Origin: an uncultured Ectothiorhodospiraceae bacterium
GTDB taxonomy: Bacteria; Pseudomonadota; Gammaproteobacteria; XJ16; Halofilaceae
Length of the DNA stretch: 64,000 bases
Direction: 5' to 3'
Assembly: GCA_913055615.1 (NCBI GenBank)
Contig: CAJXKK010000006.1
Coordinates: 1 to 64,000, forward strand
Shown here: in pieces, positions 171 to 17,328 of the stretch
Layout: each line of letters starts with the position of its first letter
Numbering within the stretch: the stretch's first letter is position 1
The notes under the pieces: generated by a model
What the model saw: the letters and a program-made list of their open reading frames with translations, nothing else
Databases searched by the model: none
Told to the model about the DNA's origin: nothing
Made by a program: the position numbers and the translations under genes

Positions 171-205
171 TTTATCTGTGTCCATCTGTGTTTATCTGTG
201 GTTCT
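171..205 (-). repeat. Decamer-periodic repeat next to valS 3' end
   Basis: On the minus strand this reads GAACCACAGATAAACACAGA and continues with further ACACAGATG-type units, a clear family copy. The bases just outside it (GGTTCTAAAACGCC on the plus strand) are also found outside the copy ending at 4265. The short string TCAGCGAAGCTCCC at 132-145 recurs at 4203-4216. So this is a relative of the composite element at 3950-4265, again placed a few tens of bases beyond the stop codon of a minus-strand gene. Confidence 0.75.
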
Positions 206-3149: not shown

Positions 3150-3962
3150 ATGGATGATTACCCGCAACGGATCGTCTGCCTGACGGAAGAGACCACCGAG
3201 ACCCTCTACCGGATCGGCGAGGCCGACCGGATCGTGGGGATCTCCGGTTTCACGGTCCGCCCACCCCGGGCCCGCAAAGAAAAGCCGAAGGTCTCGGCCT
3301 TCACCAGCGCGAAGATCGACCGCATTCTCGAACTCGAACCGGACCTCGTGCTCGGCTTCTCCGACCTGCAGGCTGATATCGCCGCGGAACTGATCCGTGC
3401 CGGGGTAGAGGTCTACGTCTTCAACCACCGCTCGGTCGCGGGCATCCTCGGCATGATCCGTCGCCTCGGGGCCCTCGTCGGCGCTGACCGCAAGGCGGGG
3501 GCACTCATCAGCGAACTGGAGGAGGGCATGGAGCGTGTGCGGGTGGAGGCGGCCGACCTGCCATGCACGCCGCGGGTGTATTTCGAGGAATGGGACGATC
3601 CGATGATCACCGGCATCCGCTGGGTGCATGAACTGATCGCCGTAGCCGGCGGCGAGGACTGCTTCCAGGAGCGCGCCGCCTGCCCGGATGCCGCCAGCCG
3701 TATCATCGCCGACCCGCGCGAGGTCGTCGCGCGCGCCCCGGACCTGATCATCGGCTCCTGGTGCGGCAAACGCTTCCGCCCCGAAAAAGTCGCCGCCCGC
3801 CCGGGCTGGGACGCCATCCCGGCCGTGCGCAACGGCCACCTCTACGAGATCAAATCCCCCGAAATCCTCCAACCCGGCCCCGCCGCCCTCACTGACGGTC
3901 TTGCGCAGCTGGCGGCCTGCATCCGTTCCGCCGCTGTGGGCAGGGCGGAGAACCACGAATGA
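3150..3962 (+). CDS. Cobalamin-binding / periplasmic-binding-fold protein (BtuF-like)
   Basis: A 270-residue protein of the BtuF/FhuD fold, related to substrate-binding proteins of vitamin B12 and siderophore ABC transporters. It begins directly with [16 protein letters not shown], continues with [20 protein letters not shown] and ends with a second lobe including [17 protein letters not shown]. No signal peptide or lipobox is visible, so the product is probably cytoplasmic, as in the free-standing cobalamin-binding proteins of many proteobacteria. No permease or ATPase gene is adjacent. It runs convergent to valS's neighbours. The last four residues (ENHE) and the stop codon lie inside a dispersed repeat, so the original C-terminus may have been replaced. 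The ligand is inferred from family only. Confidence 0.8.
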
Positions 3963-4265
3963 ACACGAATGGACACGAATGCTGCCGCAGGGCGTATCAG
4001 GCGCTCCGGGAGCTTCGCTGAGAGGTACTGGCACTCGAACCGTTGATTAGAACCACAGATGGACACAGATGAACACAGATAAGGTCAAAACCTACCAGGG
4101 GAGATTGCGCGCTCGCCGTCAAATATCGACCGCCTTTGACTTTCATCTGTGTCCATCCGTGTCTATCTGTGGTTCGACTGAGACTCCATTCACGCAGACA
4201 TTTCAGCGAAGCTCCCGGAGCGCCTGATACGCCCTGCGGCAGCATTCGTGTCCATTCGTGGTTCT
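3950..4265. repeat. Composite element: nested inverted decamer repeats
   Basis: A perfect 58-bp inverted repeat (3964-4021 against 4203-4260) encloses a second, imperfect inverted pair (4050-4080 against 4141-4175). The outer arms carry the variant unit ACACGAATGG, the inner arms ACACAGATGG. The whole could fold into a long cruciform of about 316 bp. It starts inside the 3' end of the upstream gene and stops 20 bp short of the next gene's stop codon. No reading frame inside it looks coding. The layout suggests one copy of the element nested within another. Confidence 0.85.
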
Positions 4266-15743: not shown

Positions 15744-15777
15744 GGAACCACAGATGGACACGGATGAACACAGATGA
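15744..15777 (+). repeat. Decamer repeat, left flank of the GxxExxY gene
   Basis: GGAACCACAGATGGACACGG continuing to 15777. It is a near-exact inverted match of the copy at 16181-16214, and it begins 22 bp after the parE stop. Confidence 0.9.
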
Positions 15778-15810
15778 GGGACGCACTGCTACAGGGAGAG
15801 GTGAGCGACA

Positions 15811-16176
15811 ATGGATGTCTGCAAGGACGAAACCCGGCAGATCATTTCGTGTGCTCACGAAGTGCTGAACACGCTTGGGCACGGGTTGTTGGAGAAGCCT
15901 TACGAGAATGCACTGGTTCGCGAATTCGGGTTGCGGGAGCTACCGTATCGTCAGCAGCCCAGATATCCCGTTGAGTACAAGAATTGTCGTGTTGGAGAGT
16001 TCGTGCCGGATCTTGTCGTCTTTCAGCGCGTGATCGTGGATACCAAGGTGGTCGACCGAATCGGAGATCCGGAAGCGGGGCAGATGCTCAACTACCTTCG
16101 CATCACAGGGTTGCGCCTCGGCCTGATACTCAATTTCCGCCGCCCGCGGCTGGATTGCCGGCGAATCGCCCTATGA
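15811..16176 (+). CDS. GxxExxY protein (PD-(D/E)XK nuclease-like)
   Basis: A 121-residue protein of the GxxExxY family, which is related to the PD-(D/E)XK nuclease superfamily. The name motif is at residues 25-31 in GHGLLEKPYENAL. A nuclease-like core follows: GEFVPDLVVFQRVIVDTKVV, with Asp67 and D-T-K at 77-79, where relatives usually show E-x-K. A good ribosome site (GGGAGAGG) precedes the ATG. The gene is enclosed by inverted copies of the decamer repeat, only 33 and 4 bp away. Activity is not proven for this family; cleavage of nucleic acid is an inference from fold. Confidence 0.88.
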   Translation: MDVCKDETRQIISCAHEVLNTLGHGLLEKPYENALVREFGLRELPYRQQPRYPVEYKNCRVGEFVPDLVVFQRVIVDTKVVDRIGDPEAGQMLNYLRITGLRLGLILNFRRPRLDCRRIAL

Positions 16177-16180
16177 CGCA

Positions 16181-16214
16181 TTATCTGTGTTCATCTGTGT
16201 CCATCTGTGGTTCT
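16181..16214 (-). repeat. Decamer repeat, right flank of the GxxExxY gene
   Basis: On the minus strand it reads AGAACCACAGATGGACACAG and continues, matching the left flank at all but about three positions. It ends 14 bp before the start codon of the 5'-nucleotidase gene and must lie in that gene's leader. Confidence 0.9.
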
Positions 16215-17180: not shown

Positions 17181-17213
17181 GGAACCACAAATGGACACAG
17201 ATGAACACAGATT
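17181..17213 (+). repeat. Decamer repeat, left member of an empty pair
   Basis: GGAACCACAAATGGACACAG continuing to 17213. It begins 20 bp after the stop of the 5'-nucleotidase gene and faces the copy at 17292-17328. The 78 bp between them have no reading frame with gene character. Confidence 0.85.
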
Positions 17214-17291
17214 GATCGGGTCTGCTTCCAGTCAGTATGAACGACGATCCGGGTCGCTTGTTCGTGCGCGTTCGCGCAGCCTCCTCAGTGG

Positions 17292-17328
17292 TTTTTATCT
17301 GTGTCCATCTGTGTCCATCTGTGGTTCC
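17292..17328 (-). repeat. Decamer repeat, right member of an empty pair
   Basis: On the minus strand GGAACCACAGATGGACACAG, then a second GACACAG unit. It ends 30 bp before the parC start codon. Confidence 0.85.

Follow-up and report, generated by a model that had tools for sequence, protein, structure and literature searches.

A 121-codon gene of the GxxExxY family, enclosed by inverted arms of ~10-bp units, is on balance probably the protein-coding member of a two-part system resembling REPIN-RAYT, in which a protein of predicted PD-(D/E)XK fold would act in trans on its cognate arms. The many gene-free repeats that match the arms of their own genome's gene point to a so far unrecognised system, composed of a gene and its repeats, by which repeats are spread and maintained. 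The gene was detected in the window, i.e. the whole stretch of 64,000 nucleotides analysed, which is part of a 115-kb contig; the genome measures 3.0 Mb in 87 contigs.

The GxxExxY gene and the repeats around it

The gene occupies positions 15811 to 16176 (plus strand) between parE (TIGR01055) and a conserved open reading frame without NCBIfam match, which is followed by parC; it is intergenic, and no conserved gene harbours it in an intron or intein. The upstream arm (GAACCACAGATGGACACGGATGAACACAGAT, 15745 to 15775, plus strand) is made of GAAC and then three ~10-bp units with the pattern CACAGATGNA, and the downstream arm (16183 to 16213, minus strand) is its inverted copy. The arms are 97% complementary to each other and both point inward, with GAACC as the outer end. 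An earlier note on this DNA, which took the conserved open reading frame for a nucleotidase, had described a 121-codon GxxExxY gene between inverted repeats. The profiles given below and the complementarity of the arms confirm this description, and the enclosure stands, except for its measurements: the repeats of 34 bp are arms of 31 nt, and the gaps to the gene are of 35 and 6 bp instead of 33 and 4 bp.

Judged by curated scores and conserved residues, the protein is a full member of the families TIGR04256 (GxxExxY; E 4e-35, 120.6 bits for a curated cut-off of 35) and PF13366 (PDDEXK_3; E 4e-33, 114.6 bits for a cut-off of 22), which are its sole matches in NCBIfam and Pfam, respectively. The residues E28, Y31, D67 and K79 are conserved in 63/63 GxxExxY proteins. 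Position 77 is a glutamate in 62/63 sequences and an aspartate in the window protein alone, so that an acid is found in all 63. An active nuclease of the PD-(D/E)XK superfamily would need such residues (E28, D67, the acid at position 77 and K79). The AlphaFold2 model displays a PD-(D/E)XK core (pLDDT 96, pTM 0.88). No relative of the protein was found in the PDB by sequence, and the closest solved fold to the model is the Cas4-like SSO0001 (VIA Z 9.8, rmsd 3.1, 98 residues). It is followed by a group of tied lower Z values, including Hjc (6.9) and LHK-Exo (6.8), which lie in the range (Z < 8) that the aligner's own guidance considers unsafe for inferring function. The sequence identity with SSO0001, LHK-Exo and Hjc is of 11-16%. 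From the predicted fold and the conserved catalytic residues, the GxxExxY protein is a putative nuclease. No function is on record for GxxExxY or PDDEXK_3. In the openly licensed PMC literature searched, only two papers name GxxExxY, neither of them in its title or abstract and one of them merely in passing, and nothing was found on PDDEXK_3.

The arms of this gene belong to a repeat family, CACAGAT, represented in the window genome by 114 copies at ≤3 mismatches, well above chance expectation (0 for the reversed control pattern). Most of them form gene-free pairs, a plus-strand arm followed by a minus-strand arm (38 pairs read, the gene's own counted), with spacers of 26 to about 400 nt. One such pair is found at 17182 to 17212 (plus strand) and 17297 to 17327 (minus strand), where the earlier note had correctly placed a gene-free pair (17181-17328), and a lone CACAGAT arm (174 to 200, minus strand) is located close to the contig end. 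The region 3950-4265 had also been taken for a pair of this repeat, which is not the case: its outer arms (3950 to 3980, plus strand; 4244 to 4264, minus strand, two units) belong to the sister family CACGAAT, and a CACAGAT pair (4050 to 4080, plus strand; 4145 to 4175, minus strand) is nested inside. CACAGAT and CACGAAT elements are nested in both orders, indicating that older and newer layers share the same sites. The genome contains only two GxxExxY genes, and they carry different arms. The second gene, which from its neighbourhood, as read in the flanking sequence, appears to sit in the trp region, has arms of the family CGCCAAG; its orthologue is retained in a sister species with similar arms. 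Nothing on these decamer sequences or on decamer repeats was found in the openly licensed PMC literature.

Two further features of the arms were observed. A third inverted motif (GGAGCTTCGCTG / CAGCGAAGCTCC; window positions 4011 and 4204; L235-L252) is located ~30-40 nt inward of many arms, giving concentric inverted repeats. The arms also lack stop codons in several frames, so that predicted open reading frames acquire false N-termini (18 residues) or tails (MDTDEHR) from them (window 16187, 17301 and similar starts); these extensions are likely an annotation artefact.

Distribution of arms among genes and genomes

A profile scan of named genomes gave 80 GxxExxY loci, in a sample drawn with GLLES-type patterns and biased to that clade. 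The controls were the neighbouring open reading frames of the same loci, analysed in identical windows. The earlier note had made its reading depend on an association of GxxExxY genes with arms elsewhere, and this association was found: an inverted arm pair (score ≥15) flanks 54/76 GxxExxY genes and 4/333 neighbouring open reading frames (p 2e-44). Among the four armed controls, one is another GxxExxY gene and two were identified by eye as four-helix-bundle (S23-type) genes. At least one armed locus is present in 13 of 16 phyla, including one archaeal phylum, and ~30% of the loci have no arms above the threshold. A motif test requiring ≥2 inward CRCNRAK units on each side was positive for 53/102 GxxExxY loci versus 2/329 controls, and for only 4/102 loci in the wrong orientation. 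The other intact GxxExxY genes of relatives all have inverted arms (9/9, one scoring just below 15), often of another sequence, and the best period lag is comprised between 8 and 11 in 77/82 loci. The association is thus with a class of ~10-bp periodic inverted arms, and not, as the earlier note had pictured, with a single sequence. At L191, a GxxExxY gene has arms of a very different unit, AATCCTGTTAATCCTAAAATCCTG, with a period that is still roughly 10 bp by eye. In one family (G160, G048, G128 and G192), partial GxxExxY matches are found beside intact genes, which suggests repeated gain and decay.

Although the arm sequence varies across elements, it goes with the protein clade. The median arm match is 19.5 within elements and 9.5 between elements (cross-pairs ≥15: 40/376). 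On the protein tree, T-ending units (CACAGAT, CACGAAT, CGCAGAT) and G-ending units are separated by one change (shuffled mean 7.7; 0/500), and the motif LEK[VP]YENA is present in 7/8 T-type proteins and in 0/76 G-type proteins. Unit distance and protein distance are correlated (Mantel r 0.48, and 0.24 within the G type; p about 0.0005 each). Gene and arms are therefore co-inherited or coevolving, a correlation that does not by itself show recognition.

The co-occurrence of repeats and genes was analysed with the pattern CRCRRAKN3CRCRRAKN3CRCRRAK (≥3 matches) in 200 genomes of one phylum and in 37 relatives, tests that represent few independent lineages. In the phylum sample, where the gene is present in 33/200 genomes, all 12 genomes with ≥3 matches carry it. 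Within one well-sampled family, ≥3 matches were found in 11/26 gene-bearing versus 0/21 gene-less genomes (p 0.0005). Among the 37 relatives, the pattern was detected in 3/8 gene-bearing genomes (123, 145 and 38 matches) and in 0/29 gene-less ones. The repeat could have been equally frequent in genomes lacking the family, a point on which the earlier note's reading hung; neither sample contains a gene-less genome with ≥3 arms. Many gene-bearing genomes have few or no matches, partly because the pattern allows only a fixed 10-bp spacing. The dominant arms are those of a resident GxxExxY gene in the three pattern-rich relatives (3/3). On this correspondence in three genomes, the gene-free pairs look like cognate non-autonomous partners of the gene, which is the part that holds of the earlier proposal that they are its non-autonomous derivatives.

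These data bear on the possibility, which we consider improbable, that the arms are the termini of a non-autonomous element mobilised by a different enzyme (e.g. a RAYT), GxxExxY being a captured passenger. The window genome does contain 3-5 Y1 transposase (RAYT-like) genes (L183-L187), and gene-free pairs far outnumber GxxExxY genes. Against this, GxxExxY is what the elements recurrently contain in many phyla, the letter and the period of the arms go with the protein family, repeat abundance tracks gene presence, and the Y1 genes have no paired arms of the decamer kind at their own flanks. A RAYT as mobiliser of the decamer arms was rejected on this last ground, the flanks of the resident Y1 genes carrying other repeats. 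Some of the Y1 genes adjoin repeats such as GTAGCCCGGAT.

Since two of the controls had arms, the S23-type genes (TIGR02436, four-helix bundle) were also examined. Inverted arrays (score ≥15) were found at 17/30 of these genes and at 0/58 shifted controls, with a best lag of 7 in 15/19 loci and units such as (GTAGGCA)n, (GTGAGTA)n and (GGCGAAT)n (L253-L282; L127:3273-3650; L128:1091-1486). There is no TIGR02436 match in the window genome, and the window protein does not belong to TIGR02436. S23 genes have been described in intervening sequences of 23S rRNA (PMC4990558), which, together with the fact that inverted arms would fold in a transcript, is in favour of the arms acting around a small gene as an RNA stem, i.e. 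an IVS-like hairpin, a terminator or an mRNA stabiliser. We hold this to be very improbable: among the arm mismatches, G-U-compatible changes on the coding strand are no more frequent than A-C changes (94 versus 97, p 0.88), and it is not evident what a fixed ~10-bp period would contribute to such a stem.

Differences in genes, arms and interiors between sister species

As in the window genome, the parE/nucleotidase locus contains a GxxExxY gene in the sister species G201, a member of the same genus. The proteins at the nucleotidase position are 97% identical between the two genomes and the GxxExxY proteins 60%; the arms of the locus are CACGAAT in G201 and CACAGAT in the window genome. In the more distant G200, this position is a short spacer without GxxExxY gene. 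At ≤2 mismatches, 113 CACAGAT arms were counted in the window genome, 39 in G201 and none in G200, and the corresponding numbers of CACGAAT arms are 26, 110 and 0. CACGAAT is the dominant family in G201, and CACAGAT in the window genome.

The flanks of 20 window-genome elements were all located in G201 (20/20); 18 of the sites bear an element there and the remaining two do not align through. At the chosen sites, there are 39 CACGAAT arms in G201 (82% with ≤1 mismatch) versus 18 in the window genome (56%), and 18 CACAGAT arms in G201 versus 40 in the window genome; as the sites were picked by their CACAGAT arms, the second difference is partly due to ascertainment and the first is unselected. 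Shuffled sequence gives no arms. At the 20 sites, the arm type of the resident gene is intact and the other type is both fewer and decayed. At the counterpart of the gene-free pair 17182-17327, between the nucleotidase-position open reading frame and parC, G201 (L233) has an unrelated AbiEii-like nucleotidyltransferase gene and its partner, identified from the translation by eye. Neither this counterpart nor the 20 further sites in G201 gave a clean empty site, and the insertion event was therefore not seen.

Between elements, arms are 96% identical in G201 and 89% in the window genome, whereas interiors are 55% and 43% identical, for shuffled values of 50% and 41%, respectively. Where sites are orthologous, the flanks can be aligned at roughly 80-97%, and the interior often cannot. 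The ends are thus kept while the contents turn over, as would be expected if the system acts on the ends. The stretches located just inside both arms of one element match each other (reached by 1/5000 permutations in G201, more weakly in the window genome with 84/5000). Some G201 elements contain near-perfect 37-nt stems, which differ from element to element.

The earlier note considered repeat-gene-repeat as a mobile unit. A classical one (MITE or insertion sequence) was rejected: matches of ≥4 bases that could represent a target-site duplication are at chance level in 49 elements, most sites are common to sister species, and GxxExxY was recovered by tblastn (E 1e-5) from only 3/72,556 plasmid records and from 0/50,697 phage records. 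That the gene is hardly ever present on plasmids or phages agrees with a chromosomal system, inherited for the most part vertically.

For the REPIN-RAYT-like system favoured above, we infer arm binding, cleavage or nicking, and homing-like copying. The protein, probably multimeric, would bind its cognate arms in trans, cooperatively along one face of the helix, as suggested by the 10-bp phase of about one turn. A cut or nick, at or in the element, would follow, and its repair from a further copy would carry arm pairs into the same intergenic sites and refresh them, in a homing-like gene conversion. A change of resident gene would be followed by a genome-wide change of arm type. We prefer this conversion-based route to strand transfer, given that target duplications are absent, that the sites are shared and the interiors exchanged, and that PD-(D/E)XK nucleases are not known to join strands alone. 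A point against this explanation is that the S23-type genes, of unrelated fold, have the same architecture, which indicates that a nuclease is not required for such arms.

The S23-type architecture is also consistent with GxxExxY being a repeat-binding protein and the arms iteron-like operators, by which it would regulate its own gene and, via the gene-free pairs, neighbouring transcription or chromosome structure, without any movement by the protein. The helix-phased 10-bp units, which suggest cooperative binding, the intergenic placement and the conservation of sites between species agree with this proposal. It is nevertheless unlikely, because the nuclease catalytic residues are conserved, the gene-free pairs are found at very diverse loci, and the nesting and the switch of dominant family need a spreading process.

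Comparison with known systems

The Cas4 and RecB-type nucleases (SSO0001, LHK-Exo) and Hjc are among the nearest solved folds, but the GxxExxY protein is much smaller and, as given above, hardly similar to them in sequence. A Cas4 of CRISPR adaptation was rejected, as there are no cas genes (cas1/cas2) beside the GxxExxY gene, whose neighbours are those of the parE-parC region, and an intron- or intein-borne homing endonuclease was rejected since the gene is intergenic. The Cas4/RecB-like fold could also suggest a self/non-self or defence nuclease, with the arms as self marks or decoys. The absence of a PADLOC match, of phage relatives and of any defence context at the locus (parE, parC) makes this extremely improbable.

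GxxExxY elements share with MITEs the short gene-free form with terminal inverted repeats. They differ from them by the lack of target duplication, by their diverged interiors and by a product that is no known transposase.

The S23-type loci (TIGR02436) resemble the GxxExxY loci in having a small gene between inverted arrays, and differ by their 7-bp period and unrelated fold. Intergenic heptamer arrays have been published, namely GGGAATC in Xanthomonas, in convergent pairs (PMC4692102), and TAACTGA in Beggiatoaceae (PMC4679880). Neither publication states a source gene or mentions an S23 or four-helix protein (PMC4692102, PMC4679880). By analogy with the S23 loci described here, these arrays may be linked to S23 genes. 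We propose, tentatively, that GxxExxY and S23-type genes are two founders of a broad class of genome systems that has gone unrecognised. In such systems, a small protein would maintain and rewrite intergenic arrays of its own period (~10 bp and 7 bp) chromosome-wide, and arm types would be swapped in place upon a change of resident gene. If this were true, it would account for the decamer and heptamer repeats that many bacteria carry and whose origin is unknown. A published survey saw no evident way in which short-period intergenic repeats spread (PMC4679880). The present system offers a candidate cause for them, and also gives a widespread, so far uncharacterised family of nuclease-fold proteins a first lead to its function.

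The closest parallel to our proposal is REPIN-RAYT (Pseudomonas and others; PMC3116915). In both cases, a dedicated chromosomal gene adjoins its own repeat, copies of which are scattered between genes as inverted pairs; each type of repeat goes with a type of gene; the ends are conserved and the interiors variable; elements are nested; and the system is chromosomal, hardly found on plasmids and phages. GxxExxY does not belong to REPIN-RAYT, since its gene does not encode a Y1 transposase and its arms are not REP palindromes: the protein has a predicted PD-(D/E)XK fold, whereas RAYT is a Y1 (HUH, PF01797) transposase, and the arms are direct arrays of ~10-bp units, whereas REPs are short imperfect palindromes with GTAG/CGTC heads. 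Moreover, the Y1 genes of the window genome stand apart from the decamer repeats. The matching of genes and arms makes the self-recognition of arms by the protein directly testable. If the protein does recognise its own arms, GxxExxY would represent, beside REPIN-RAYT, a second chemistry for repeat-enzyme pairs, with an in-place, genome-wide turnover of repeat type.
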